From the NCBI GenBank assembly GCA_902569725.1, contig CACFVG010000004.1:1-58376 (forward strand): 58,376 bases of DNA, given 5' to 3'. Under the pieces are notes generated by a model. The model saw only the letters and a list, made by a program, of their open reading frames with translations. It made no database searches and was not told the origin of the DNA. Shown in pieces: positions 12,950 to 46,392 of this stretch. This stretch comes from an uncultured Pelagibacteraceae bacterium (GTDB lineage: Bacteria; Pseudomonadota; Alphaproteobacteria; Pelagibacterales; Pelagibacteraceae). Numbering within the stretch: the first letter of the stretch is position 1; each line of letters starts with the position of its first letter. Made by a program: the position numbers and the translations under genes.

Positions 12950-13615
12950 TTAACCCTTTTTATAATGAATTATCTTATCTAAAATCTTACTCATCTCAGT
13001 AGATGAAAGAATCTTAGGCTTCCCTAACTTTAATGCAATTATGTATTGATGACAAATATTTTCTATCTCTTGTGCTAATTCAAAAGCTTGTTTTAAAGTT
13101 CCACCGATTGTTAACTGTCCATGGTTTGACATTAGGCAACCTTTTCTCTTTTCTAAAGCTTTAATAATATTAATTGATAAATCTGGTGTACCAAAGGTTG
13201 CATATTCGGCACATTTAATATCGTCTCCGCCAGCTAGAGCGACCATATAATGAAAGGCAGGAATTGATTTACCATGAGTTGAAACTGCAGTGGCATGGGG
13301 AGAATGAGCATGAACTATTGCTTTTGCTTCTCTTTTTTTAATATAAACATCTTGATGAAAACGCCATTCAGAAGATGGATTTAATCCAGAATTAAACATT
13401 TTTAGATTGTTATATTTTTCATCTAAAGCAAGAAAAACAATATCCTCTGGTTTAAGAGTTTCATATTTAATTCCAGAAGGTGTAAGAAGAAATCCTTCAA
13501 CGTCATTTTCTATTACTCTTATAGACAGATTGCCTGATCTAAGAGGAGATAAATTTGTAGTATTCAACATAAGTGCAAATTTTATTATGTCTTCTCTTTC
13601 TTTAATATTTTTCAT
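12950..13615 (-). CDS. FucA-type class II aldolase, probable 5-methylthioribulose-1-phosphate aldolase
   Basis: A 221-residue zinc aldolase. E83 (in PSSEWRFHQ) and histidines H102, H104, H165 match E. coli FucA E73, H92, H94, H155 at a constant offset of ten, and AFHYMVALAGG and YATFGTPDLS also resemble FucA. MtnB dehydratases space their third zinc histidine further away (about 78 residues in human APIP as I recall it, against 61 here), so aldol cleavage is favoured over dehydration. The start overlaps mtnA in an ATGA. With MtnP and MtnA it would complete the DHAP shunt: 5-methylthioribulose-1-phosphate to DHAP plus 2-(methylthio)acetaldehyde. No mtnC, mtnD or mtnK is seen nearby. True fuculose or ribulose phosphate activity remains possible. 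Confidence 0.8.
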   Translation of the reverse strand: MKNIKEREDIIKFALMLNTTNLSPLRSGNLSIRVIENDVEGFLLTPSGIKYETLKPEDIVFLALDEKYNNLKMFNSGLNPSSEWRFHQDVYIKKREAKAIVHAHSPHATAVSTHGKSIPAFHYMVALAGGDDIKCAEYATFGTPDLSINIIKALEKRKGCLMSNHGQLTIGGTLKQAFELAQEIENICHQYIIALKLGKPKILSSTEMSKILDKIIHYKKG

Positions 13616-14682
13616 TTAAATAAATCCTTTAATCCTTTTTCTGATGCTTCACATACACCTTTTTCAGTAATTAATCCTGTTACGTATTTAGCAGGGGTTA
13701 CATCAAAGGCTAAATTCATTGATTTACTTTTTTTTGGATATATTTGTAATTTTTTGACTTTTCCATTTTCATCCAAGCCCTCTATGTGGGATAATTCTTC
13801 TGCGTTCCTCTCTTCTATTGGTATATCTTTATAATTTTTTATATCCCAATCAATTGTAGAACTTGGTAATGCTACATAAAAAGGAACATTATTATCTTTT
13901 GCCGCTAATGCTTTAAGGTAAGTTCCAATTTTATTGCAAACATCTCCGTTAGCTAAAGTTCTATCTGTCCCAACGATGCACATATCAACCTGTCCTCTTT
14001 GCATTAAAATACCTCCAGTATTATCTGCAATAATAGTATTAGATACATTTTCTTCATTTAATTCGTAAGAAGTTAAATTAGCTCCCTGGTTTCTTGGTCT
14101 TGTTTCATCTGCCCATACATGAACTGGTATTCCTTTTTTATGTGCATAATAAATTGGAGAAGTTGCAGTACCCCAATTAATTGTTGCAAGCCAACCAGCA
14201 TTACAATGAGTTAAAATATTTACTGTATCTTTTTTTTTATTATAAATTTCTTCAATTATTTTAAGACCATTTAGTCCAATATTTTCACAAAACTTTACAT
14301 CCTCTTCACAAATTTCTTTTGCTTCATTTAATGCTATTTCTAAAATTTTATCACTATTAACACCTGATAATTTATCTATCATTCTATCAACTGCCCACTT
14401 CAAATTTATTGCTGTTGGTCTTGAATTAATCAAATCTTCTGCAGATTTTTTTAAAAAAGATTGATCATTATTTTCTATAATGGCTAAAACCAATCCATAA
14501 GCAGCAGTGGCGCCAATCAAAGGAGCTCCTCTAACTTCCATAGTTTTTATAGCATTAATCGCATCTTTTACTGTTTTAAGATCTTTAATTATAAATTGAT
14601 GTGGAAGTTTTGTTTGATCAATAATTTTTACAACATTATTTTCAAACCAAATTGTACGATATTCTTTACCTTCAATTTTCAT
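13612..14682 (-). CDS. mtnA: S-methyl-5-thioribose-1-phosphate isomerase
   Basis: A 356-residue member of the eIF2B-like isomerase family, converting 5-methylthioribose-1-phosphate to the ribulose form. Seen motifs are MEVRGAPLIGATAAYGL near residue 48, the catalytic cysteine in LTHCNAGWLAT near residue 160 and the catalytic aspartate in CIVGTDRTLANGDVCNKIGTY near residue 245. The length fits the family. It overlaps both neighbours by four bases (ATGA at each end), showing strict translational coupling with the GFA-family gene and the aldolase. This supports one pathway for methylthioadenosine. Confidence 0.95.
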   Translation of the reverse strand: MKIEGKEYRTIWFENNVVKIIDQTKLPHQFIIKDLKTVKDAINAIKTMEVRGAPLIGATAAYGLVLAIIENNDQSFLKKSAEDLINSRPTAINLKWAVDRMIDKLSGVNSDKILEIALNEAKEICEEDVKFCENIGLNGLKIIEEIYNKKKDTVNILTHCNAGWLATINWGTATSPIYYAHKKGIPVHVWADETRPRNQGANLTSYELNEENVSNTIIADNTGGILMQRGQVDMCIVGTDRTLANGDVCNKIGTYLKALAAKDNNVPFYVALPSSTIDWDIKNYKDIPIEERNAEELSHIEGLDENGKVKKLQIYPKKSKSMNLAFDVTPAKYVTGLITEKGVCEASEKGLKDLFK

Positions 14683-15155
14683 TTTTTAGTTTTTAAATAT
14701 TCTTTATACCTTTTAAGACTTTCTTCAGGCCACGTTTTTTCTGCATCATACATTAATTCAAAACAATTTTGATTTTTTTCTAAATTTAACCAAGGATCTT
14801 TATCTTTAATAAATATATGTGCTTGAGGTGGAAACATATTTGCATCTTCTAAAGTTTTTGTTCTTACAGTTAATCTTCCTATAGCTGTGTCATAATCAGC
14901 ATAAACAAAGACACCACAACTATTACAGAAAAAAACTTTGCATGGCTTTCCACTCCCTGCTGTAAGTTTAGCTGATGACATTTTACCTTTAATTAAAAAA
15001 AATGAATTATCTAAAATGCTTGTATTAACTACATAAGATGAACCAGTTAATACTTTGCAGTCTTTACAATGACATGCTTGTGTAAAAAGAGGTTTTTCAA
15101 TAATTTTATATTTTACTTCGCCACAAACGCACTTTCCTTTTAATTCATACTTCAT
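14679..15155 (-). CDS. GFA-family (glutathione-dependent formaldehyde-activating-like) zinc protein
   Basis: A 158-residue protein with the GFA/CENP-V fold signature: CVCGEVKYKI at residues 9-18, ACHCKDCKVLTGSSY near 28-42, and FFCNSCGVFVYAD near 86-98, giving the seven or so zinc-binding cysteines. Characterised Gfa binds glutathione and speeds S-hydroxymethylglutathione formation, but most family members are uncharacterised. The position, coupled by ATGA to mtnA and inside the methylthioadenosine operon, suggests a role with a thiol or aldehyde made by the pathway, for instance the methylthioacetaldehyde released by the aldolase. That role is inference. Confidence 0.85.
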   Translation of the reverse strand: MKYELKGKCVCGEVKYKIIEKPLFTQACHCKDCKVLTGSSYVVNTSILDNSFFLIKGKMSSAKLTAGSGKPCKVFFCNSCGVFVYADYDTAIGRLTVRTKTLEDANMFPPQAHIFIKDKDPWLNLEKNQNCFELMYDAEKTWPEESLKRYKEYLKTKK

Positions 15156-15162
15156 ATTAAAA

Positions 15163-16089
15163 TTAAATTTTTGATTCTATAAAATCTAAAATTGTTGGAT
15201 TATAATATTGAAAACAATCTCCTAAAGCCATCAGATGTGCATTTTGAATATTTTCTTCCCATCTATTTCCATTATTTATTCCAATTCTTCTACAATTTTT
15301 GTTATTAATTTTATAGTCATCGCTAATTACTATTCTTTTTACTCCTGGAATTTTTTCTATCCAGTCAGACAACAATCCATCATAAGGATCTTTGGGATGA
15401 GTAAAAACTAAAACAGGAAGATTTTTTGCCTTACTAATATCTTTAATTTGATTTTCTCTTAAAAATGCTGGTCCAGGCCTTTTCTTTTTAAAATTTTCTA
15501 AAGCTTTTTCTATACCAACTTTTTTAACTTTATATTTTTTGGACAATTTTCCATAACAAGCATGGTGGGTAGAAATTCCCCCAGCAACCTTGCCAGGATA
15601 TTTTGAAATCAACATCATAGTTGCCCAACCTCCACAAGATTGTCCTGCCATAAAAATTTGATTATTTGGAATACCCAATTCTACAAATTTTTTAATTAAA
15701 TCTAAGTTAGCATTAACTCTTTTATCTAGTTTAGTTATTCCTTTATATGGAAAATCAAATTTATTTTTCCAAAGTCTTTTCCAATCATCACCACCTAAAT
15801 GATCTGTGCAAAAGTTATATACTAAAATCTCTTTACCTTTTACTTTTTCACCCGACAAAGAAGCAAAATTTCTAATATTATTTTTCCAAACACAATTTTT
15901 TGAAGGTTTATCATGATCATCTTGGCCATGATTAAAAATTACTAGAATTTTATTTTTTGGATCTTTTACCTCAAAACCAGTATCTAATTTCCATTCACCA
16001 CTTAGAAAACCACTTTTAAGCAATTTGTCTGCGTGTAAAGGGCTAGAAAATAAAAAAATAATTAGCAAATTAATTAAATATTTTTTCAT
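15163..16089 (-). CDS. Secreted alpha/beta hydrolase (dienelactone hydrolase-like)
   Basis: A 308-residue protein with a signal peptide (about residues 1-20, ending SSPLHA). The fold is suggested by VIFNHGQDDHD (oxyanion strand near residue 52), the nucleophile elbow GQSCGGW near residue 150, an acid candidate in TKHPKDPYDG-like FTHPKDPYDGLL, and a late histidine in QNAHLMALGD. Family members hydrolyse esters or lactones, here in the periplasm. Its substrate is unknown. It lies one base downstream of mtnP and eight bases upstream of the GFA gene, so it belongs to the same transcript although a link to methylthioadenosine use is not obvious. Confidence 0.78.
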   Translation of the reverse strand: MKKYLINLLIIFLFSSPLHADKLLKSGFLSGEWKLDTGFEVKDPKNKILVIFNHGQDDHDKPSKNCVWKNNIRNFASLSGEKVKGKEILVYNFCTDHLGGDDWKRLWKNKFDFPYKGITKLDKRVNANLDLIKKFVELGIPNNQIFMAGQSCGGWATMMLISKYPGKVAGGISTHHACYGKLSKKYKVKKVGIEKALENFKKKRPGPAFLRENQIKDISKAKNLPVLVFTHPKDPYDGLLSDWIEKIPGVKRIVISDDYKINNKNCRRIGINNGNRWEENIQNAHLMALGDCFQYYNPTILDFIESKI

Positions 16090-22628: not shown

Positions 22629-22705
22629 TGGTAGCGGGAAGTGGGATCGAACCACTGACCTCGGGCTTATGAGTCCCGCGCTCTAACCAACTGAGCTACC
22701 CCGCC
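22629..22705 (-). tRNA. tRNA-Met (CAT anticodon)
   Basis: The minus strand folds as a complete 77-base tRNA with encoded CCA (22629-22631). The acceptor arm is GGCGGGG with TCCCGCT (G-U at both ends), followed by TA, a GCTC/GAGC D-stem, an anticodon loop CTCATAA and a TTCGATC T-loop on AGTGG/CCACT. The anticodon CAT reads AUG. An elongator Met tRNA is favoured over the initiator because the initiator's 1-72 mismatch is absent; the lysidine-modified Ile2 tRNA also carries CAT and is not fully excluded. The last anticodon-stem pair is A-G rather than Watson-Crick. Confidence 0.92.
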
Positions 22706-25121: not shown

Positions 25122-25213
25122 ATAAACTTAATTAAATCACATATATTGCTTTCAGACAATAATTAGTTGTCCAATATGGGTTGAGCAAAAATGTAGGCTA
25201 TAATGCTTCTAAA

Positions 25214-27657
25214 TTATGAATTTTTGTAATTTTTTTGGTTAAGGGGTTTGAGTAAAATTTCAGCTTTATATTTTTTTTTCTCTATTTCGATTTCAATTAT
25301 GTTTTTTTTTAGCGAATTTATATCTTCGTCAATTTTTAAATATCCAAAAGCTAAATTTTTATTAAAATTAAATGAATAGTTCCCTGAAGTTGTTCTTCCA
25401 ATAATTTTACCATCTAGATAAATAGGCTCATCATGAAGCATTAATGGTTCACCTGGTTTACTATTTTTTAAAGTTAACATTGTAAATTTTTTTTTTTGTT
25501 TTTTATCCTTAATTTTAAGTAATGCTTGTTTACCAATAAAATTTATATTTTTTTTATAACTAATTGCAAAATTAAGACCTGCTTCGTATTGGTTTTCTTC
25601 CGGAGAAATATCATGTCCCCAATGTAAAAAACCACTTTCCATTCTCATAATATCCATTGCATGCATTCCACAAAGACTTAACTGGTACTTTTTTCCGTTA
25701 TTTATAATTAAATTATATATTTCTTTTGCTTTATCTTTTTCTATATAAATTTCATAACCTAATTCACCCACATAAGACAATCTTTGTACCCAAACTTTTG
25801 TTTCATTAATTTTAATATATTTTGCAGTACCAAATTTAAAATTTTCATTAGAATAATCATCGTTACTTAAATCTTTCATTAAATCTCTGCTTTTTGGTCC
25901 AAATATTCCAAGTACACAATAATCATCGGTAACATCTGATATTTTAATATTTTCAGATATATGTTTTTCTATATGAAACTTATCATGATCTCTATTTGCT
26001 GCTGATGTTATAATTCTATAGTTATTTTCTTTTAAACAAACAACTGTTAGGTCTGTTTCGATACCTCCATCTTTATTAAGCATTTGGGTATAAGTACATT
26101 TTCCAATTTCTTTTTTGATATTTGCAGTACAAATTTTTTGAAGTTCCTCATGTACAGTTTTGCCTTCTAAATCATATTTAGAAAAAGGCGTTAACTCAAA
26201 CAATCCAATATTTTCTCTAGTATTTTTTGTCTCAAATTCGACTGATGGGTACCAGTTTTGATAGTTATATGAATATTCATATTCTGTTTTCTCACCATTT
26301 TTTGCAAACCACATTGGTCTTTCATACCCACCTGAAACTCCAAAACATGCTCCTTCTTTTTTTAACTCTTCATGATAAGGAACAAGTTTTTGATTCCTTG
26401 AAGTTTTATGTTGTTTATATGGCCAGTGCATTCCATATAAATCTCCTAGTGTTTCGGTAATTCTTGATTTAATAAAATTTATTTCTGAGTGAAAATTTTG
26501 GAATCTTTTAATATCATAAATAAATAAATCTTCATTAATATGTCCATTAATTAACCATTCAGCTGTAACTTTTCCTACCCCTCCTCCACTACCAATTCCG
26601 ATACTATTTAAACCACAGCATGCAAATAAATTTTTTAATCCTGGTACTTCTCCTAGAAGAGTATTTGTATCTGGAGTAAAAGACTCTGGTCCTGCAAAAA
26701 ATTTTCTAATTCCAGCTTTTTCCAACATTGGAACTCTTTTTAAAGCTGCTTCTAAATAAGGTTCAAAATGTTCAAAATTTTCTGGAAATTCACCATATGA
26801 AAAGTCCTCTGGAACTCTATTAGTTTTATTGAATGCGGGAATTGATTTTCCCTCAAATATTCCTATTAACATTTTTCCTGCATCTTCTTTTAAATATAAA
26901 CTGTCATCGAAATCTCTTAAAACTGGGATATTTTTCGGCAATTCATTAATTCCTTCAGTAATTACATAAAAATGTTCTGCTGGATACAATGGAATGCTAA
27001 ATCCGGTATCTTGTCCTATTTGTCTAGACCACATTCCTGTTGCAAGAACGATGTATTCACATTCAATAGTTTTGCCGTTTACAGCCACTCCTGCAACTCT
27101 TCCATTTTTTTTAATTATTTTTTCTACTGGTGATTTTTCAAATATTTTAACACCTTCTTTCCTTGCAGCTTTTGCGAGTAAATTTGTTACACCAATTGGA
27201 TCAGCTTGGCCATCGCCTTGCATAAAAATTCCACCTAAAATATCTTTTTCATTAATGATTGGATAAATTTTTTTATCTGATCAATATTTAATACCTCAAC
27301 ATTTACATCAAACAATTGTGCTGTGGTCGCTTGTCTTTTGAGTTCTTGCCATCTTCCTTTTGTAGTTGCAATTGACAAAGCTCCGTTTAATTTTAATCCA
27401 CTTGAAAAATCTATTTCTTTCTCTAATTTTTTATAAAGTTCTAAAGAATACTTTCTAATCTTTGTTACACCTGCTGAAGGTCCTAATTGACTTACAAGTC
27501 CTGCGGCATGCCAAGTGGTACCAGAAGTTAACTGATCTCTTTCAAGTAAAATGGTGTCTTTCCAGCCAAATTTGGCTAAATGATATGCAGTTGAACAACC
27601 AGTTACACCACCACCAATAACAACAACTTTTGCGCTGCTGGGCAGTTCTTTTTCCAT
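25214..27657 (-). pseudogene. Dimethylglycine/sarcosine dehydrogenase-like FAD-GcvT oxidoreductase, frameshifted
   Basis: Two adjacent frames together make one protein of about 814 residues. The 5' part (27657 to about 27235) begins VVVIGGGVTGCSTAYHLAKFGWKDTILLERD, the FAD site, and ERDQLTSGTTWHAAGL, the flavin-attachment region. It runs into a wrong frame after an A7 run (bases 27268-27274). Adding one A restores KKIYPIINEKDILGG and joins the second frame (to 25214), which holds the rest of the DAO domain and a C-terminal GcvT/aminomethyltransferase domain with folate-site features (YVGELGYEIYIEKD, FLHWGHDISPEENQYEAGL). The intact enzyme would demethylate dimethylglycine or sarcosine, passing the one-carbon unit to tetrahydrofolate. 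It lies four bases from ald. The one-base lesion may be a sequence error. Confidence 0.85.
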
Positions 27658-27661
27658 TTCT

Positions 27662-28777
27662 TTATTTTATAGCATCTGAAGCAGATACAAAAGAGTGACC
27701 AAAAGCATCGGCAACTGCTTTGTAAGTAACGTGGCCTTTATGAACATTTAAACCTTCAAGAAAATTTTTATCTTCTTTTAAGGTTTTTTGATAACCATTG
27801 GCAGCAAGTTTATTTAAAAAAGGGAGGGTTGCTTTATTTAATGCAATAGTTGAAGTTCTTGGAACTCCTCCAGGCATATTAGCAACACAATAATGAACAA
27901 CATCATCAACAATATAAGTAGGTTCAGCATGTGTTGTTGGCTTGCTTGTTTCAACACATCCACCTTGGTCTATTGCCACATCAACAATTACTGACCCTCT
28001 CTTCATTAATTTTAACATATCTTTAGTTACTAATTTTGGAGCTTCCGCGCCTGGAATTAATACTCCACCAACTAATAGATCAGCTTCAGCAACTAATTTT
28101 TTTAAATCTATTTTATCGCTTTGTTGAGGAATTATTTTATCTCCAAATATTTCAGTTAATTGTTTTAATCTTGCTTCAGACTTATCAATAATATGGACTT
28201 TGGCTCTCAGTCCTGTTGCAATAATAGCTGCATTTTCTCCAACCACACCTCCACCTAAAATTACTACCGTTCCTCCTTCAACACCTGGAGCTCCACCTAA
28301 TAATAATCCTCTACCTTTTTGATTTTTTTCTAAACAATGTGCTCCTGCTTGTACTGACATTCTTCCTGCAACTGCACTCATTGGAGCAAGCAAGGGCAGT
28401 CTTCCATTATTGTCAGTTACAGTTTCGTAAGCTATACAGATTGATTTTGAATTAATTAATCCTTGAGTAAGTTCTTTTGCAGCAGCTAAATGCAAATAAG
28501 TAAAAACAATTTGATTTTCTCTAATCATTTTAACTTCATTTGATAAAGGCTCTTTAACTTTAACAATTATTTCTGCATCATTAAAAATATCTTCTGCTTT
28601 TTCTACAATTTTAGCTCCAGAAGATTTATATTGATTATTATCAAATCCTGCTTCGAAGCCACCATTATTTTCAACTAAAACTTCATGGCCGTTTGAGGTT
28701 AATGATTTAACGCTATCTGGCGTAAGTCCAATTCTATTCTCTTGAGGTTTAATTTCTTTAGGAACTCCAATTTTCAT
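27662..28777 (-). CDS. ald: Alanine dehydrogenase
   Basis: A 371-residue NAD enzyme interconverting L-alanine and pyruvate plus ammonium. MKIGVPKEIKPQENRIGLTP is the family start; K75 (VKVKEP) and H96 (YLHLAA) are at canonical catalytic positions. The Rossmann motif is VVILGGGVVGENAA near residue 170, and DVAIDQGGCVETSKPTTH is typical. The gene sits 6 bp after the aminotransferase gene, so it can recycle the alanine that enzyme would make back to pyruvate with release of ammonium. Confidence 0.96.
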   Translation of the reverse strand: MKIGVPKEIKPQENRIGLTPDSVKSLTSNGHEVLVENNGGFEAGFDNNQYKSSGAKIVEKAEDIFNDAEIIVKVKEPLSNEVKMIRENQIVFTYLHLAAAKELTQGLINSKSICIAYETVTDNNGRLPLLAPMSAVAGRMSVQAGAHCLEKNQKGRGLLLGGAPGVEGGTVVILGGGVVGENAAIIATGLRAKVHIIDKSEARLKQLTEIFGDKIIPQQSDKIDLKKLVAEADLLVGGVLIPGAEAPKLVTKDMLKLMKRGSVIVDVAIDQGGCVETSKPTTHAEPTYIVDDVVHYCVANMPGGVPRTSTIALNKATLPFLNKLAANGYQKTLKEDKNFLEGLNVHKGHVTYKAVADAFGHSFVSASDAIK

Positions 28778-28783
28778 AAAGAA

Positions 28784-30130
28784 CTAATTTTTTTTAGATT
28801 TTGCGTAATTATTTATTCCAGTTCTTAGTTTTTCAATTATTTCGTCTATATGTTTTTTTTCAGAAATAAACATTGGCGCTATAATTAAACAGTCACCTGT
28901 AGCTTTAAAATTTACTCCTACTTCATAACAATGTTTAAAACATGTAAAGCCTGCTACACCAGGTTTTTTATCCATTTTAATATCTACTCCAGCCATCATT
29001 CCATAACCTCTTATATTTTCAACTACATCAATATCTTTTAATGAAAATATTGCTTCTTGAAAGTAAGGTGCCATTTCTTTTGATCTGTTAAATATATCTT
29101 CTTTTTCAAAAATTTCTTGAACTGCAAGCGCTGCTGCTACTGATACCGGAATACCTGAATAAGTATATCCATGAAATAATTCTATAGTTCCTTTTGGTGA
29201 ATTATCCATAATTGCATCATAAATTTCCTCTTTACATGCAACAACTCCCATTGGAACAATCCCATTAGTTGTGGCTTTAGCCATAGTCATTAAATCTGGA
29301 GTAACACCAAACTCTTGAGCACCAAATGGTGAACCCATTCTTCCCCAACCTGTTATTACTTCGTCAAATATTAATAGAATCCCATGTTTGTCACAAATTT
29401 CTCTTAATCTTTGCAAATATCCTTTTGGCGGAACAAGTGTTCCTGTAGATCCAGCTACTGGTTCAACAATACAAGCTGCAATATTTTCTCCACCAAAGTT
29501 TACGCAAATTCTTTCTAAATCATTTGCAAGTTCTGCTCCAGTGTCTGGTTGCCCAGATACAAACTTATGCTCTGGTAAATGAGTATGTCTCATATGAACT
29601 ACACCTGGCATTAAAACACTTGAAAATGTTTTAACATTATTAACCATCCCTCCAACTGAAGTCGCACCAATATTCATTCCATGATAAGCTCTTTCTCTAC
29701 CAACAAATCTATATCTATGTCCCTCTCCTCTAGCTTTATGGTAAGCTATTGAAATTTTAATCGCGGTCTCAACAGCTGTTGATCCACATATAGTATAAAA
29801 AATTCTATTTAAATTTCCTGGTGTGTGTTTTGATATTTTTGTTGCAAGCTCAAATGAACCACCAAAACCTTGTTGGAAAGGTTGGCAATAGTCTAAAGTT
29901 TCTAATTGTTTAGTTACAGCATTTATAATTTCTTTTCTTCCATGTCCTAGTGGATTGCAAAATAAGCCTGAACTTGCGTCAATCATAGTTTTTCCTTGAT
30001 GATTCTTTATATAAACACCTTTTGCTTCTGTTATTAGTCTAGGATTTTCTTTAAAGTCTTTATTTGAAGTAAATGGCATCCAATGCTCATTAAGAGAATT
30101 GGGCATTTTAAATTTATTTTCAGCACTCAT
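28784..30130 (-). CDS. Class III omega-amino acid-pyruvate aminotransferase (beta-alanine or taurine type)
   Basis: A 448-residue PLP enzyme of fold type I. The cofactor lysine is K285 in TMAKATTNG, D256 in LIFDEVITGWGRMG pairs with the pyridine nitrogen, and GSTAVETAIKISIAYHK is the phosphate-cup region. LNEHWMPFTSNKDF and GATSVGGM resemble omega-amino-acid:pyruvate transaminases. Beta-alanine, taurine, hypotaurine and other amines are possible donors; divergent placement next to tauABC favours taurine, giving sulfoacetaldehyde and alanine. Alanine dehydrogenase follows in the operon. The 202-bp gap to tauA holds both promoters. Confidence 0.88.
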   Translation of the reverse strand: MSAENKFKMPNSLNEHWMPFTSNKDFKENPRLITEAKGVYIKNHQGKTMIDASSGLFCNPLGHGRKEIINAVTKQLETLDYCQPFQQGFGGSFELATKISKHTPGNLNRIFYTICGSTAVETAIKISIAYHKARGEGHRYRFVGRERAYHGMNIGATSVGGMVNNVKTFSSVLMPGVVHMRHTHLPEHKFVSGQPDTGAELANDLERICVNFGGENIAACIVEPVAGSTGTLVPPKGYLQRLREICDKHGILLIFDEVITGWGRMGSPFGAQEFGVTPDLMTMAKATTNGIVPMGVVACKEEIYDAIMDNSPKGTIELFHGYTYSGIPVSVAAALAVQEIFEKEDIFNRSKEMAPYFQEAIFSLKDIDVVENIRGYGMMAGVDIKMDKKPGVAGFTCFKHCYEVGVNFKATGDCLIIAPMFISEKKHIDEIIEKLRTGINNYAKSKKN

Positions 30131-30332: not shown

Positions 30333-31310
30333 ATGAGAAAAATAATTAGTTTTATTCTAGGAACTATTGTTGCTCTTAACTTATCAGTTTCAGTTGCTAA
30401 TGCTGCTGCAAACGAAGTAAGAGTTGCATTCTTTTTAGAATGGGCAACACCGAACCAAGAAGCAAAAGTTAAAAAAACTTTTGATAAGGCTTTAGGTGTG
30501 CCAGTGAAATGGACTAACTTTGCAACTGGTGGTGAGATGACAGAAGCTATGCTATCTGGAGATATTGACATATCTTACTCACAAGGTTTAACACCATTCG
30601 TAAACGCAGTTAATGCTAAAGCGCCTATTAAGCTTGTTGATATTGCAGTTATATACGGAATGGGTGGAACTACATGTGTTGCAGCTAAAGGTATCGATAA
30701 AGGAAATGCTTCTTCTAAATTAGACGGTCAAAAAGTTGCTGTTCCTTTAGGAACTATGGCTGACTATGTTTTTAAAGAAACAATGAGAGTTGTAGGAGCT
30801 GATATTTCTAAAATGAAAGTTGTTGATATGAACCCAGAAGATGGATCTGCAGCATTTGTTAACGGTGACGTTGCAATGGCATGTTTATTTGGTGGTAAAT
30901 CTATCAAAGCAGCTAAAGAAAAAGGTGCTTCATTGCTAACTGTTAAAGAAGCTCAAGATGCTGGTATTGCTGGTATTGATATTACTTCAGTAACTAACAA
31001 ATTCCTAAAAGAAAACCCAGGAATGGTTAGAACTTTCGTTGAAGTAACTCATGAAGCAAACGCTAGATACAATGCTGGAAAAGCTGATATGAATATTATA
31101 GCTAAAGATGCAGCTATGGATCTTGCAGGTACTAAAAAGCAAATGGGTGGATTTGAGTTTCCAAATGCAGGAACAATGAAATCTAAGTATATGAATAAAG
31201 GTGGTATACTTATGACTTACCTAGAAGTTATGGGCAACATGTTTGCTACTTCAGAAAACCCAGCTCTTAAAGATTACGCAGCTGTTGTAGATACTAGTTA
31301 TCTTCCGTAA
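30333..31310 (+). CDS. tauA: Taurine-type ABC transporter, periplasmic binding protein
   Basis: A 325-residue protein with a clear signal peptide cut after about residue 24 (VSVANA|AANEV). The mature start EVRVAFFLEWATPNQEAKV and KWTNFATGGEMTEAMLSGDIDISYSQGL match the NitT/TauT (SsuA/TauA) binding proteins. VAVPLGTMADYVFK forms the hinge. Lower Lys/Asn bias than its neighbours suggests strong expression. It is first in tauABC and is followed by a 15-bp terminator-like hairpin, as expected for an abundant binding protein. Taurine is the best guess, supported by the flanking aminotransferase; other sulfonates or amines are possible. Confidence 0.88.
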   Translation: MRKIISFILGTIVALNLSVSVANAAANEVRVAFFLEWATPNQEAKVKKTFDKALGVPVKWTNFATGGEMTEAMLSGDIDISYSQGLTPFVNAVNAKAPIKLVDIAVIYGMGGTTCVAAKGIDKGNASSKLDGQKVAVPLGTMADYVFKETMRVVGADISKMKVVDMNPEDGSAAFVNGDVAMACLFGGKSIKAAKEKGASLLTVKEAQDAGIAGIDITSVTNKFLKENPGMVRTFVEVTHEANARYNAGKADMNIIAKDAAMDLAGTKKQMGGFEFPNAGTMKSKYMNKGGILMTYLEVMGNMFATSENPALKDYAAVVDTSYLP

Positions 31311-31401: not shown

Positions 31402-32199
31402 ATGAGTGATTTAGTTTCTCAAAACGTAAACATGATTTTTAAATCTCCTAAAGGAGAAACTGTTCATGCGCTTAAAGATATAAGTTTTACATTAAAAAAA
31501 GGTGAACTTTTAACTGTTCTTGGTCCTTCAGGATGTGGAAAAACAACTTTATTAAATATTGCAGCAGGTTTTCTTCGCCCAACCTCAGGAATTATTACTC
31601 TTAACGATAAAGAAATTGATGGACCGGGAGTTGAAAGAGGAATGGTTTTTCAACAAGGTGCTTTGTTTGAATGGTTAACAGTTGCAGAAAATGTGAACTT
31701 TGGTTTACGAATGAAAAAAGAAGATCCAGTTAAAACTGCACAAAAAGTTGAAGAATGGCTTGATATTGTTGGTTTAAAAGGTTTTGGAAACACTCCAACC
31801 TACCAATTGTCAGGTGGTATGCAACAAAGAGTAGCTCTTGCAAGATGTTTAATCAATAATCCAGATTTAATATTAATGGACGAACCTTTGGGAGCTCTAG
31901 ATGCTCTAACAAGAGAAAAAATGCAGTCTCTTGTCTTAAAAATATGGAAAGAAACTGGAAAAACAATTATTTTAATTACTCACTCAGTTGAAGAAGCGTT
32001 GCTATTGGGTGAACGCGTTTATGTTATGGCTCCAAGACCTGGAAGAATACATAAAGAATACAAACTTCCCTTTGCTAATATGGGTTTAAATGAAGATTTA
32101 AGAGAAATAAAAAATAACGAAGAATTTGTATCCAAAAGAGAAGAAATTTTATCAATGATTTGGGATATGGAAGAAGAAATAATGGGCAAAGAAAGTTAA
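31402..32199 (+). CDS. tauB: Taurine-type ABC transporter ATP-binding protein
   Basis: A 265-residue ATPase. Walker A GPSGCGKTT is near residue 43, the signature LSGGMQQR near 139, and Walker B LILMDEPLGALDALTRE near 158, followed by the H-loop THSVEEA. The N-terminal KSPKGETVHALKDISF is a TauB/SsuB-type lead. VERGMVFQQGALFEWLTV is typical of this subfamily's Q-loop. It energises the adjacent permease. One base separates its stop from the tauC start. Confidence 0.93.
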   Translation: MSDLVSQNVNMIFKSPKGETVHALKDISFTLKKGELLTVLGPSGCGKTTLLNIAAGFLRPTSGIITLNDKEIDGPGVERGMVFQQGALFEWLTVAENVNFGLRMKKEDPVKTAQKVEEWLDIVGLKGFGNTPTYQLSGGMQQRVALARCLINNPDLILMDEPLGALDALTREKMQSLVLKIWKETGKTIILITHSVEEALLLGERVYVMAPRPGRIHKEYKLPFANMGLNEDLREIKNNEEFVSKREEILSMIWDMEEEIMGKES

Positions 32200-32200
32200 A

Positions 32201-34096
32201 ATGATTACTGGAATTATTACTTTTTTAGTTATTTTTGCTGTTATTGGTTCTATTCTTTATGGACAAAGATTAGCCAAGACCGAAAAAAGTGATGCGGTTT
32301 TTGGAAATCCTGAAAGAGCAAAAGGTGGTGTTCACTGGGTTATAGTTGGAACTAGTTTTCTTTTATTGTCTTGGCTTTACTATTCTTGGGATATAGCAAA
32401 AGCATTCTATCCAAAATCTGCTAATGAACTTTGCCAGGTCGCAAAAGTTAATGAATCATTGTTATCATTAAAATATCTATTTCCAATTGAAGAAAGACAT
32501 CACAAAAGCACTGCGCTAATTAAACGCGAAAATATAAATATACAAAAAAAAATTACCATTATTCAAAATTCAACTGATTTAAAAGATAAAGATAAGGAAT
32601 TATTTGTTAAATTGCTTAAAAAGACTCAAAGAACTATACCTTTGTTAACAGATGAAAAGCTTTTAGAAAATGAAACAAAAGACAAAATCAGAGATTTAAC
32701 CAATAGAATTACTTGGCTAACAGAGGACTTTCAAAAAATAAGTTATCCACCTATTAAAAGTGTAGAAGAAGAAAATAAAAGAATAGAAGAGCTAAAAAAA
32801 CAGCTTGGCTGGGGCGCAACAGGAATGGAAGTCCCTCCTCTTCCAGAAAGTAAAAGAGGTTTAAAATTTCATACAGCTGCTCAAGAATTAAATAAAATTA
32901 GTGATGAATTTTTTTCATTGAGAAACCATAACCCTGAATATTTAAAATTATTGAAAGAAATTAGAGAAGAAATTAAAAAATATAAAGATAGTTTAGATGA
33001 TAGTCAGGAATTAGAAATAACTTTCATTAAAGAAATTAAAAAACTTGGACAAAGAATAGAATATGAAAGCGTTTTTCCTCCAAATGCTCTGGATGAGATG
33101 GAAAAATCGATTAGAGAATTTGATGTAGCTCAAAAAAGTGAACAAGGGAATTTAATTTATATAGATGCTTTATTATTCCCAGCAGGAACTATAGTGGCTA
33201 GTGGTCCTACTTGTGCAGAAGATGGCCCCGGTAGATGGCTTCCAAAACCTTCTGATACATTTAGAATTTTTGGAGATCTTTTAAAACCAAGTGTCGGATT
33301 TAAAATGATACCAATGATTTGGTATGAAATGATGGGAGTAAACAGAATAGTTGGTTTTATATTACCTGATTGGATAGCAGATGTGATGCCAGGTAAATAT
33401 CCAGTTCACAGTGCGGATGGAACAGTAAAACCTAATTTTAAAAGCAAAGTTTTAGATGTAGTAACAGGTGAATTTAAAGCATTTAAAATACCAGTTCCAA
33501 CAGGGCATATCTGGGATTCATTTTTAAGAGTATTTTTAGGATTAACTTTGGGTATTATTTTTGGTGTTCCACTAGGACTGTTTATGGGTCTTAATAGATT
33601 TGCTAAGGGTTTTTTTGATCCATTAGTAGAGTTATACAGACCAGTACCTCCTCTTGCTTGGGCTCCATTAGTAATTACAGTTTTTGGAATAGATAACTTA
33701 GGGAAAGTATTTTTATTATTTATGGTTTCATTTTCTATTATGATTATTTCGGCAAGAGCTGGAGCATCAGGTACCCAACTTTCAAAAATTCATGCAGCAC
33801 ATTCATTGGGTGCATCTAGATGGCAGATATTAAGGGAAGTTATATTTCCTAATTCTTTACCAGAAATACTAACGGGAGTAAGGGTTGCTGTAGGTATGTG
33901 TTGGGGAACATTAGTTGCAGCAGAATTCCTAGCTGGTACCTCGGGTATAGGTTTTGTTGAAAACGTCGCAAGAAAATATATGCAATATGAAGTAATTTGG
34001 ATAACTATATTCGTAATGGGAATGTTGGGTCTTTTATTTGATGTTACAATTAGAAAAATAATAGATAAAACAATTCCTTGGCGTGGCAAAGGATAA
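32201..34096 (+). CDS. tauC: Taurine-type ABC permease with about 350-residue N-terminal/extracytoplasmic insertion
   Basis: A 631-residue permease, whereas usual TauC/SsuC proteins have 250-280. The conserved BPD_transp domain is the C-terminal third (about residues 434-631), with the EAA loop HAAHSLGASRWQILREVIFP. Ahead of it are two membrane helices (about 3-20 and 45-65), then a long hydrophilic part: a charged helical region of likely coiled coil (about 95-320) and a globular patch with PTCAEDGPGRWLPKP. Lone cysteines near residues 78 and 337 could form a disulfide if the segment is periplasmic. Its role is unknown. The gene is intact and in frame, and the ldh-like gene follows two bases on. 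Confidence 0.87.
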   Translation: MITGIITFLVIFAVIGSILYGQRLAKTEKSDAVFGNPERAKGGVHWVIVGTSFLLLSWLYYSWDIAKAFYPKSANELCQVAKVNESLLSLKYLFPIEERHHKSTALIKRENINIQKKITIIQNSTDLKDKDKELFVKLLKKTQRTIPLLTDEKLLENETKDKIRDLTNRITWLTEDFQKISYPPIKSVEEENKRIEELKKQLGWGATGMEVPPLPESKRGLKFHTAAQELNKISDEFFSLRNHNPEYLKLLKEIREEIKKYKDSLDDSQELEITFIKEIKKLGQRIEYESVFPPNALDEMEKSIREFDVAQKSEQGNLIYIDALLFPAGTIVASGPTCAEDGPGRWLPKPSDTFRIFGDLLKPSVGFKMIPMIWYEMMGVNRIVGFILPDWIADVMPGKYPVHSADGTVKPNFKSKVLDVVTGEFKAFKIPVPTGHIWDSFLRVFLGLTLGIIFGVPLGLFMGLNRFAKGFFDPLVELYRPVPPLAWAPLVITVFGIDNLGKVFLLFMVSFSIMIISARAGASGTQLSKIHAAHSLGASRWQILREVIFPNSLPEILTGVRVAVGMCWGTLVAAEFLAGTSGIGFVENVARKYMQYEVIWITIFVMGMLGLLFDVTIRKIIDKTIPWRGKG

Positions 34097-34098
34097 AA

Positions 34099-35104
34099 GT
34101 GAAGCAAAAGATTTTAAAAAATAAAATCATTAAAATATTCAAAAGTCATAAACTAGGCAGTTTACATGCATCAATATGTGCTAACGCTTTAATTAATGCA
34201 GAATTAGTTGGAGCTCCGACTCATGGTTTATCTAGATTAAAAATGTATTGTGATAGAATAAACAAAAAAGTAATTAACCCAAAACCAAAAATTAAAATAA
34301 AAAAAATTTCTCAATCTATTTCCAGGATCGATGCAGATAATAGTATTGGATTTGTAGCTGCTGATATTGGAATAAAACAAGCAATTAAAAATGCAAAAAA
34401 AAACAGGAATAGGATTAGTTGGAATTAAAAATAGTGGCCACTACGGTTTGTCAGGTTATTATGCAGAACAAGCTGTTAAAAAAAATTTAATTGTTTTTTG
34501 TTTTACAAATGCTCCTCCGGCAATAGCTCCTTATGGAGCAAAAAAAAGTTTATTTGGAACAAATCCAATATGTTTTGGAACACCAACATCATCTAAAGTT
34601 CCTTTTATTTTAGACACGTCTGTTTCAGTAATTAATAGAGGCAAAATAAGAGTTGCTGCAAGAACTGGAAAAAAAATACCAGAGGGAGTTGCTTTAGATA
34701 AATTTGGTAAACCAACTACAGATGCAAAAAAAGCATTAGCAGGTGTTCAGTTGCCAATAGCAGGTTTTAGAGGTTCAGGACTTGCATGGATGGTTGATAT
34801 ATTAAGTGGTGTGTTTACTGGTGGAAATCATGGAGGAAAAGTAAAAGATCCTTTTGATGATTTTTCAGGCCCACAAAATATTGGTCACTTATTTTTTGTA
34901 ATGAAACCAAATCTTTTTGTTGGAAATTATAGTGAAAGGATAAAAGAAAATATTAAAAGAATAAAAAGATTGCCTAAAATAAAAGGTATAAAAGAAATTT
35001 TATATCCTGGTCAAAGCAAACAAAGAAGATATAAAAAAAATCTTAATAAAAAAATTAATATTCCAGCAAATATTGCTGAGGATCTTAAAAAATTAAATGC
35101 TTAA
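34099..35104 (+). pseudogene. Ldh2 (malate/sulfolactate/ureidoglycolate) family dehydrogenase, frameshifted
   Basis: Two overlapping frames make one 334-residue NAD(P)-dependent dehydrogenase. The 5' part starts at GTG 34099, two bases after the tauC stop, and holds LVGAPTHGLSRLKMY. The frames part at an A9 run (34395-34403); removing one A restores NAKKTGIGLVGIKNSGHYG. The downstream part has NAPPAIAPYGAKKSLFGTNP, LDTSVSVINRGKI and GFRGSGLAWMVDILSGV, all family hallmarks. Substrates in this family include malate, (R)-sulfolactate, ureidoglycolate and lactate. The position after tauABC makes sulfolactate attractive but unproven. The lesion is either a real inactivation, slippage or a homopolymer error; nothing else is damaged. 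Confidence 0.85.
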
Positions 35105-42688: not shown

Positions 42689-43951
42689 CTAATTTTTACT
42701 CAACATTAAATCTAAATAAAGTGCTGCAGACCATGAAAAGTTATTAGCTCCAAAAGGAAGACCAGTTTTAGAACTGTAATATTCATGAAAGTTATTTTGA
42801 TTAATTAATTTAATTGTTAGTTTTTTTACTTTTTCGGCAAAATTTCTATTTTTATTAATTAAAGATTTATAAATTATCCAATTAGTATTAATCCATACAG
42901 GGCCTCTCCAATATCTTTTCTCTTCAAATGAATGATGATCAGGTTTTATTGTAGTATAAAAATACTTCTCATTTACATTAAAATCTTCAAGATTTTTAAT
43001 TATTTTTGTATTCACATCATCATGGTTCAAATCTGCAAATAAAATAAAGAAATTAGTTAGTGAGGGAATTTTAATTTGCGTATTATTTTTTAAATCAAAT
43101 GAAAAAAACATTTTTTCTTTTTCATTATATAAATCAAATATTTTATTCTCTGTTTTTTTGATTTTTTCTTCTAAATCTAAATATTCTAATTTAAATAATT
43201 TTAATAGTTCTATTAAATCTTTATTCGCTTTAAGAAAGATTGAATTAAAACCAATATCAATAATATTAAACATAGAATTATTTAAAAGTTTATTAGGATT
43301 ATAATTGTCTGACTTAAATTGATTTAAGAGAGTTATATAACAATCATAATCTTTATTTAGTGGTCTTTCATCATTGTTTGAAACTTTAAGATCTCTTCTT
43401 TCGTATGATAAATTTTTATCTACATTTATTTTAGATAATGCAAAGTCCCATAATGGAGAATTATCATAACCACTTTCCCACGGGTGTATTATAGATATTA
43501 AACCCGATTGATTTTGGTCTCTATTTTTAAAAAACCATTCATGATATTTTTTTAATTTACAAACTAGATTAAAAACTTTTTTATTTTGCGTTTCATCTAA
43601 TGAATTATTTTTAACAATTATTCTTAAGATTGATGCTGCTATTGGTGGTTGAGTTATTCCAGAAGATGGTATTTCTTTTCCACAAGACCATGTCATGTGG
43701 TTTGGAAAATAGCTGTCATCAACTTCATGAAACAAAATATGTGGTACCATGCCATCATCCCATTGACCTTTTAAAAGGGTTTCCAATTCCTGAATTGCAT
43801 AATCTAAATTAAAATATGAATAACCTAACGATATAAAAGCTGAGTCCCAATTCCACTGAGCTGGGTATAGCTTGTTATTTGTAGGTAGTGTGTAGCCAGC
43901 CCTTCTATTCTCTAGAAGAATTTTTTTAGCAACCTCAACTAAATCGCTCAT
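42689..43951 (-). CDS. GH63 family glycosidase (glucosyl-/mannosylglycerate hydrolase-like)
   Basis: A 420-residue (alpha/alpha)6-barrel glycosidase without signal peptide, hence cytoplasmic. QWNWDSAFISLGY, SSGITQPPIAASIL, the catalytic-aspartate motif HPWESGYDNSPLWD, YWRGPVWINTNWII and the glutamate region FHEYYSSKTGLPFGANNFSWSAAL follow the order in GH63 mannosylglycerate and glucosylglycerate hydrolases. These cleave the osmolytes to sugar and glycerate. The gene is coupled to the sugar permease (TAATG) as the last of an importer operon, suggesting that the imported substrate is its glycoside. The exact sugar and aglycone are not determined. Confidence 0.85.
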   Translation of the reverse strand: MSDLVEVAKKILLENRRAGYTLPTNNKLYPAQWNWDSAFISLGYSYFNLDYAIQELETLLKGQWDDGMVPHILFHEVDDSYFPNHMTWSCGKEIPSSGITQPPIAASILRIIVKNNSLDETQNKKVFNLVCKLKKYHEWFFKNRDQNQSGLISIIHPWESGYDNSPLWDFALSKINVDKNLSYERRDLKVSNNDERPLNKDYDCYITLLNQFKSDNYNPNKLLNNSMFNIIDIGFNSIFLKANKDLIELLKLFKLEYLDLEEKIKKTENKIFDLYNEKEKMFFSFDLKNNTQIKIPSLTNFFILFADLNHDDVNTKIIKNLEDFNVNEKYFYTTIKPDHHSFEEKRYWRGPVWINTNWIIYKSLINKNRNFAEKVKKLTIKLINQNNFHEYYSSKTGLPFGANNFSWSAALYLDLMLSKN

Positions 43952-45143
43952 TAGCCCTTCACACTTCCTGCTGTTAATCCACTTACTAAATATTTTTCAA
44001 AGTAAACAAAAATAAATAAAACGGGTAAGGTCACTATTACTGATCCGGCCATAAGATATTGTCTAGGAGTTTCAGCATCACCACTTAGATACTGTATTGC
44101 CCTTGAAAGTGTAAAAGAATTTGGATTGTCTAAAACATTAAAGAAAATAAAAATTCATTCCAAGCTATCATAAATACGTATAAAGCAACTGATGAAATAG
44201 CTGGAATACTAAGTGGAATTATTATTTTAGTTATAATTCCAAACCAGCTTAATTTATCTAATATCGCCGCTTCTTCTAATTCTTTAGGGATACTTTTGAA
44301 ATATCCTTGTAGCATATATATAGCTACAGGAAGAGTGGTAGCAGTATAAACAATTAATAATCCCTCAATAGAATTTCTCAAGCCCAGCTGACTAAAAACA
44401 GTATAAAGTGGTATCACCAAAACAATTGCTGGAAACATATAAATTATCAATATTGATGTTGATAAAAAAGTTTTTCCAAAAAAGTTTAATCTGGCAATAG
44501 CATAAGCAGCTGGAATTGCAAAAACTAATGTGATGAATACTGTTCCCAGAGATACAATAGTACTAGTTAATATATACTTTCCAAATTTGTAAGATTTAAA
44601 TATTACAAAATATGATTTGAATAAATCTTTAAATCCTTGAGCAAAATTTATACTAAAGTCTAAAGGATTAACTAATAATGCAATTTGTGTTTTAAAGCTT
44701 GTAACTACCATCATATAAAATGGAAACAGAATTACAAATGAAAATAGCACTATTCCAAAAAGTGTTAAAAAATCGAAAATTATTATTTGAGTAGAATGTT
44801 CTTCTTCCAAAATTTTGTTGTTAAACTTTTTAATTTTATTAATGAAAAAATAAAGAATTAAAAATACTCCAATATTATACCAAATGGGCATAGACTGAAT
44901 TAAATAACCATCAATAAATATAAATATTAATGAAAAAATTATTAATTTTAAAATATAATTAAGTTTATTTCCTATTATAACATGGGCCAATGAAACTAAA
45001 AAACCAAGTAAAAAAATAGTTTGAAAATTAAAGTTTTCTAATTTTATACCTTGTAATGTAACTAGTATTTTCCATATAGAAATCAAACTTACTAAAAAGA
45101 AAGATGAAATAATTGAAAAAATTATAATATTTTTAGTTTTCAT
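43951..45143 (-). pseudogene. Sugar ABC transporter permease (MalG-like), frameshifted near its 3' end
   Basis: The main frame runs from ATG 45143 to a TAG at 44130-44132 and ends in AWNEFLFSLMF. Family members continue past this point. A T4 run (plus-strand bases 44132-44135) one base shorter than needed causes the stop; restoring it gives FLDNPNSFTLSRAIQYL through MAGSVIVTLPVLFIF to LVSGLTAGSVKG, a normal MalG ending, and a TAA that overlaps the GH63 start. Corrected length is about 397 residues, longer than the usual 280-300 because of about four additional N-terminal helices. The EAA loop is EAAILDKLSWFGIITKIIIP. The ATG was preferred over a TTG three bases upstream. Confidence 0.85.
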
Positions 45144-46392
45144 CAACTCTCTTTCCTAAAAGTTTAAAATAGAAAAACATGAAAAGAAGTAAAAGAATTA
45201 CTATTACTATAGATACAGCTGAGCCAGTGCCAATATCTGATATTGCAAAACCTTGCTGATAAACATTTATTGGCAAAGTCCTGGTTCCAGATGCTCCACC
45301 TGTAAGCAAAAAAACATCCTCAAATTTATTAAAATTCCAAATAAATCTAATCATGAACAAAATAGAAATTACAGCTGTAATCTGAGGCAATGTTATTTTA
45401 AAAAATTTTTGGAAAGGGCTTGCTCCATCTACATCAGCAGCTTCATATAATTCCTTTGGAATAGCCTGTAGTCTGGCAAGAATAAATAAAAAAGCCAAAG
45501 GAAAATATCTCCATATTTCAAAAATAATAACTGTTGTAAGGGCAAGCCTTAATTTAAAATCGAATCCTAAAATATTTACTGCAATATATTTTTGACCTAA
45601 TAGATTAATCGGTGTTTCTATTATCTGATAATTAATTAACAAACTATTTAAAGTACCGCTGTTCGGGTCAAGTAAAAGTTCCCAAGTATATGCTAATGCT
45701 ACAACTGGCGCTACATATGGAAAAAGCAAAACACTCCTCATAAATGTTCTACCAAAGAATTTCTGGTTGACCATTTGAGCAGTCAATATCCCAAATACAA
45801 TTGAACCAACGGTGCCAAAAAAAGTATAATAAAATGTAGTTAATAATAGATCTATAAACTCATTCTCGAATAGAACTTTTTTAAAATTTTTTAGAGTAAA
45901 CTTTGTATTAAGTAAAATATTATCAGACTTTCCTTTTAGCTTTGGCTTTATTGATTTTATTTCGTTTTTACTTACATTAGATCCATCTTTAGTCTCAAAT
46001 ATTACTTCAAAGTTTTCTCTGTATTTTGCTGGCCAATTTCCAAATTTACAATTTAATTTATTTTTTTTGAATTCACATCTTTTGTCTAAATCTTTTGGTT
46101 GATAATTTTTAGGATATTTGTCTTGAAAAGTAACATCTCTTATTTCTTGTAATAAAGAGCTATTTCTCAGTTTATAAAGAATTTTAATTTTTGTAGTTTC
46201 TCCTAAAATAGATTTAACAATTTTTTTTGCCCGTGGTTCAGGTATCCTTATATCTTTTAATTCGACTTCTTTAAAACTAATCCAAACATTTGCAAAAATT
46301 GGAAATAAAACTATTGCAAAAACTAAAAATACCGCAGGTAAAGTTAGTATATATGCTGTTCTCTTTTCTGTTTTTGCTAGTGTATCGTTCAT
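45133..46392 (-). CDS. Sugar ABC transporter permease (MalF/UgpA-like) with periplasmic insertion
   Basis: A 419-residue permease. After helix 1 (about 14-34) comes a hydrophilic insertion of about 130 residues (35-165) with two cysteines in RCEFKKNKLNCKFG, likely disulfide-bonded in the periplasm. The BPD_transp core follows, with EAADVDGASPFQKFFKITLPQ as the EAA loop, then the family-typical GGASGTRTLPINVYQQGFA. MalF of E. coli also has a large periplasmic loop, but after helix 3, so this one is analogous at most. It overlaps the malG-like gene by 11 bases. Confidence 0.9.
   Translation of the reverse strand: MNDTLAKTEKRTAYILTLPAVFLVFAIVLFPIFANVWISFKEVELKDIRIPEPRAKKIVKSILGETTKIKILYKLRNSSLLQEIRDVTFQDKYPKNYQPKDLDKRCEFKKNKLNCKFGNWPAKYRENFEVIFETKDGSNVSKNEIKSIKPKLKGKSDNILLNTKFTLKNFKKVLFENEFIDLLLTTFYYTFFGTVGSIVFGILTAQMVNQKFFGRTFMRSVLLFPYVAPVVALAYTWELLLDPNSGTLNSLLINYQIIETPINLLGQKYIAVNILGFDFKLRLALTTVIIFEIWRYFPLAFLFILARLQAIPKELYEAADVDGASPFQKFFKITLPQITAVISILFMIRFIWNFNKFEDVFLLTGGASGTRTLPINVYQQGFAISDIGTGSAVSIVIVILLLLFMFFYFKLLGKRVDEN

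Follow-up and report, generated by a model that had tools for sequence, protein, structure and literature searches.

A one-base frameshift at an A7 tract in a SAR11 FAD oxidoreductase/GcvT gene, probably an error of the assembled sequence

Does the one-base frameshift that splits a DMGDH/SarDH-like gene of an uncultured SAR11 bacterium belong to the living cell or only to its assembled sequence? The gene lies in a stretch of 58,376 nucleotides (hereafter the window; 29% GC), which is contig C4 of an assembly of 993,384 bases in 39 contigs that is 81% complete. The nearest relatives of this genome (G000) are SAR11 (Pelagibacteraceae) genomes; below, the nearest one is called G101, and a second relative used for comparison is called G200. 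The plus strand of the window reads TTTTTTT at 27268-27274, which is A7 on the coding (minus) strand. The whole split FAD-oxidase/GcvT gene extends from 27657 to 25214 on the minus strand and is made up as follows:

27235..27657, minus strand: N-terminal part of 140 codons, the FAD-binding start of a DAO-type oxidoreductase, with about 10 codons outside the family before the stop TAG
27268..27274, minus strand: A7 tract, the site of the frame break as judged from the sequence and from relatives; A8 in the nearest relatives
25214..27267, minus strand: C-terminal part in the -1 frame, with the rest of DAO and with FAO_M, GCV_T and GCV_T_C; the ORF list starts it at the ATG at 27223

The first-pass annotation had described a one-base frameshift in this tract, the same family continuing past it in another frame, and a single A as sufficient to restore the reading frame. 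This description holds in all its parts. Frame 0 before the tract runs from 27657 to 27235 and ends with the TAG, and the -1 frame after the tract stays within the same family down to 25214 without a further stop. In a profile search, the first piece matched Pfam DAO from 1 to 126 and the second from 133 to 353, which indicates that little is lost at the junction. A gain of one base at the tract would join both frames, as in the relatives. The abundance of A7 in the window is only mildly in excess, with 294 overlapping matches versus 248 ± 25 in shuffles, 4 out of 100 of which reach 294; the unusual part is the frame break. Past the tract, a private P to Q change was seen at codon 147 (window 27218-27220) in the mostly conserved MPGDG motif, where some relatives have K.

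Comparison with related genomes, a check that the first-pass annotation had proposed, was carried out on several sets. In the alignment of the first set, all 29 relatives carry an additional base at this point, and A8 is present in each of the six nearest (89-93% identity). When 399 genomes were searched for the local motif, it was matched in 10, of which nine have A8 and one, G000 itself, has A7. Both halves lie in one frame in 108 of 110 loci, although some loci represent the same genome twice (e.g., L003 and L057) and the independent relatives are fewer than this count. Only the window itself (L002) and L049 (AG-414-M02) depart from this; L049 has a different frameshift deeper in the same gene, with an extra base in another A run. 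A protein search of the 399 genomes with the intact orthologue as query found an internal stop and a short frame only in G000 among the best 150 matches listed, a count that may miss some broken genes. Many relatives have a shorter or interrupted tract, and, G000 apart, none among the 29 or in the 110 loci is out of frame at this site. The extra base in the relatives, with A8 in the nearest ones, indicates that the change is a one-base loss from A8 to A7, which is private to this assembly as far as examined. A search of phages with a 758-base stretch gave no match, and neither did a search of viral contigs with the exact A7 motif.

The split gene does not look like a decaying one. In 12 aligned sequences, the private codons of the gene in G000 comprise 15 non-synonymous and 31 synonymous ones, and the resulting N/S of 0.48 is the lowest of the 12. 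Compared with G101, the gene has an N/S of 0.42, which places it at the 63rd percentile among 552 other pairs, and private residues at invariant columns number eight in G000 and between two and 17 in the other 11 sequences. Pseudogene decay or relaxed selection was rejected on these values, as N/S is not raised. The absence of decay leaves three options for the lesion: it is very recent, it is bypassed, or it is not real.

It had further been proposed that the cell, if the break is real, would lack this step of betaine breakdown. In SAR11, betaine breakdown is assigned to BHMT, DMGDH and SARDH genes in the passage of PMC3160333 that deals with this pathway. The likeness of the split gene to the dimethylglycine/sarcosine dehydrogenase family is a full one in architecture, since DAO, FAO_M, GCV_T and GCV_T_C appear in order over the two pieces. 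However, the orthologue in G101, a single frame of 814 codons, gave no equivalog assignment, with the best 25 of its 57 NCBIfam matches all below cut-off (as are the best 25 of 40 for a paralogue on contig C6), and the gene has the following neighbours, among them sulfonate/taurine-type transport genes:

27662..28777, minus strand: ald, alanine dehydrogenase, uninterrupted (TIGR00518 above cut-off)
28784..30130, minus strand: class III omega-aminotransferase, uninterrupted (NF052567 AptA above cut-off)
30333..31310, plus strand: sulfonate/taurine-type ABC substrate-binding protein (TIGR01728 and TIGR01729, both below cut-off)
31402..34096, plus strand: ATPase (31402-32199) and permease (32201-34096) of an ABC transporter, presumably the one to which the binding protein belongs

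The binding protein falls below the cut-off of the taurine model, and the sulfonate/taurine-type substrate of the transporter is thus a putative one. Across 80 loci, which differ in size, ald has relatives in 64, the aminotransferase in 57 and the binding protein in 48. G000 also has two separate paralogues of the split gene on C6, at 13204-15567 and 25209-27533, with 34% and 32% identity over about 800 residues and no internal stop. The second of these adjoins a gene at C6:27695-28516 that belongs to PF02574, a family which we take to include BHMT. The context of the split gene suggests sulfonate/taurine rather than betaine. With such neighbours and with two uninterrupted paralogues elsewhere in the genome, it does not follow that the cell lacks the betaine step, and the functional reading is corrected to this extent.

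The frameshift at the A7 tract is not the only one in the window, where two more genes are broken at homopolymers:

34165..35104, plus strand: Ldh_2 gene with the second A-run frameshift of the window, A9 at 34395-34403 and A8 in G101; given in the ORF list as two frames, 34078-34428 and 34391-35104
43951..45146, minus strand: ABC permease gene with the third homopolymer frameshift, T4 (coding strand) at 44132-44135 and T5 in G101; its ORF is cut to 44130-45146 by T4, with about 60 codons lost at the end

A comparison of whole genomes was made with 958,302 of the 993,384 bases of G000, 912,573 bases of G101 and 400,000 bases of G200. ORF pairs with less than 80% coverage or less than 78% identity were dropped, and a mid-gene filter, which was chosen after a loose first scan, ignored shifts in the outer 8% of an ORF. 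A mid-gene frameshift in G000 with an intact counterpart in G101 was found in 12 of 573 pairs (545,015 nt), or 2.2 per 100 kb, and the reverse in 1 of 571, which is a genome-wide excess against the sister genome. The Fisher test gave p = 0.003 for 12 versus 1 and p = 0.011 for 10 versus 1 after removal of two doubtful cases, values to be read with the caution that the affected genes on contig C12 are neighbours, so that the 12 events are not independent. The doubtful cases are on C15 (compensating indels and a near-start shift) and on C33 (ZnuA family, a near-start shift); the lone case in G101 is also near a gene start. Against the 400 kb of G200, G000 was broken in 5 of 266 pairs and G200 in 1 of 266, and between G101 and G200 the counts were 1 of 213 (G101 broken) and 0 of 210 (G200 broken). 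The excess depends on trimming: at 0, 3, 5, 8, 10, 15 and 20%, the counts were 19, 16, 14, 12, 12, 9 and 8 for G000 versus 13, 7, 3, 1, 0, 0 and 0 for G101. The loose scan gave 37 of 573 versus 32 of 571 pairs, many of which differed at the ends of ORFs. Mid-gene stops that lie in frame, with no shift, were found in 2 of 573 pairs for G000, in none of 571 for G101 and in 1 of 213 for G101 when viewed from G200.

Most of the events add or remove a single base within or next to an A/T run, and the genes concerned are unrelated. In A/T runs of at least five, one-base changes were counted in 9 of 6,761 runs of G000 as seen from G101 versus 5 of 6,627 in the reverse direction, where the count may include some of the same events from the opposite side. 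The affected Pfam families are Aldedh, ROK, ABC permease, Ldh_2, ZnuA, TPR/sulfotransferase, AICARFT/IMPCHase with MGS (which we take to be a purH-like gene), FMN_dh and Arginase, and one protein had no Pfam match; the scan covered ten of the twelve reference proteins and the split gene, with C15 left out. Pooled over 11 frameshifted genes, N/S was 0.39 versus 0.35 for the others. High values came from C12, with 0.88 (94th percentile) for the sulfotransferase gene and 0.61 (82nd percentile) for the purH-like gene, which carries two separate single-base insertions. At the end of this contig (L197, 26041-31362 of 31433), three successive genes, the purH-like one included, each have more than one single-base insertion; the middle gene showed its shifts in the comparison with G200 (82% identity) and in no other. 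Further shifts lie on two contigs of 4-5 kb. In the 80 loci of relatives, four frameshifts were found in 463,131 nt of coding comparison, in three loci and each with one more base in an A run, by a scan that would miss shifts near gene ends.

The A7 tract is probably an error of the assembled sequence. According to this explanation, the true tract would be A8, one A would have been lost during whole-genome amplification, sequencing or consensus calling, and the living cell would make the FAD oxidoreductase/GcvT protein in its normal, unbroken form of about 814 residues, as G101 is predicted to do. We infer that G000, like the genomes nearest to it, is single-amplified, and that its frameshifts arose mostly in vitro. 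The AG-series isolate numbers attached to 71 of the 80 loci are presumably those of GORG-Tropics single-amplified genomes, although MAG appears in the titles of some of these records. The benchmark of the GORG-Tropics workflow, in the part of PMC11247762 that gives it, averages 3.0 indels of any kind per 100 kb; the rate in G000 is near this value and would therefore fit in-vitro error, if G000 is of that kind. The events also resemble the homopolymer errors of draft or single-amplified genomes in being one-base changes of A/T runs that are spread across unrelated genes and that sister genomes lack. However, the two AG-series genomes compared, G101 and G200, are much cleaner, and AG-series origin alone does not explain the excess. 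The explanation by error is further weakened by the small asymmetry without trimming (19 versus 13) or in the loose scan (37 versus 32), and by the position of the three shifts of the window inside a 58 kb contig, away from its ends. The raised N/S of the two C12 genes would also fit real decay there. The main rival is a real and very recent deletion, in which replication slippage would have shortened A8 to A7 in this cell alone or also in its close kin; the gene would then yield a truncated protein and no functional enzyme. Runs of A8 are natural sites of replication slippage, the sequence does read A7, and an absence of decay is to be expected of a young deletion. A private deletion in one sorted cell would look the same as an error, and an elevated indel rate in the cell could underlie the genome-wide excess. 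A real deletion would nevertheless imply that one genome has gathered about ten lesions of this kind, with two in the purH-like gene, when the two compared genomes have next to none, and several of the lesions lie at a contig end or in tiny contigs. A real deletion is possible on this evidence, and less likely than error. The first-pass annotation had named a homopolymer error and a very recent mutation side by side. Both stay viable, given a one-base loss in a continuous gene without decay, and the data lean to the former. The observation is a correct one with an ordinary cause, most likely a sequence error and otherwise a private recent deletion. Claims of pseudogenes or gene loss from a single uncultured SAR11 assembly need a check against sister genomes, because this assembly has, over the genes compared, about two mid-gene frameshifts in every 100 kb.

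The absence of decay could also be accounted for if the tract is read through, either by slippage of RNA polymerase on the A run or by a ribosomal -1 shift at A_AAA_AAA, so that some full-length protein would be made, as has been proposed for genes of Buchnera and Blochmannia, or as in dnaX-like cases. This is improbable, and nothing points specifically to it. The frame change is indeed -1, and ATA AAA AAA sets the heptamer in the right register, but the heptamer is in register in 688 of 923 ORFs of G000 and therefore carries no signal. In the 87 nt downstream, no stable structure was found by a folding model that excludes pseudoknots (z +1.08; 174 of 200 shuffles fold as well). Programmed -1 frameshifting was rejected on the ubiquity of the heptamer and the lack of a stimulatory fold; the comparison in E. 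coli involving A_AAA_AAA, as presented in the relevant section of PMC5009743, also counts against it. As to the polymerase, the account of transcription errors in PMC5574713 gives one-base insertions as the commoner error in A/T runs, and the split gene is under normal constraint, as a slippage-rescued gene would be. According to the same account, however, insertions increase exponentially with the length of the run; A7 is short, and the survey of the E. coli and Buchnera transcriptomes described there found no restored frame. In Blochmannia vafer, according to the frameshift section of PMC3017870, eight genes have poly-A/T frameshifts that may be corrected, and four of these are private, as A7 is here, and show no rate acceleration. 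The split gene shares with the Buchnera and Blochmannia genes of that section an AT-rich genome, a one-base shift in an A run and constraint. In contrast, several of the shifts reported there are conserved among populations or species and lie in long tracts of nine or more, and the A7 state here was found in G000 and in none of the relatives examined (29 relatives, 110 loci and 10 motif-matching genomes). The transcriptional slippage raised by the first-pass annotation is thus unsupported, and a search of the open-licence literature for Pelagibacter together with transcriptional slippage found no papers. A broader version, in which a SAR11 lineage has about ten real poly-A/T frameshifts in conserved genes, the purH-like one included, and tolerates them through slippage of the polymerase or the ribosome, is more improbable still; if true, it would mean endosymbiont-like tolerance of frameshifts in a free-living bacterium. 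An 8-A run in a coding region can change its length readily, which would suit phase variation, with the run as an on/off switch kept by selection. This is the least credible of all these explanations, since many relatives have a tract that is shorter or interrupted, and none of the others examined is out of frame there.

Among the other AG-series genomes, the ald and aminotransferase genes in L037 (3240-3690) and L062 (670-720) have a private extra base in an A run. In the window, the sole Rfam match at gathering thresholds is a tRNA on the minus strand at 22632-22705.
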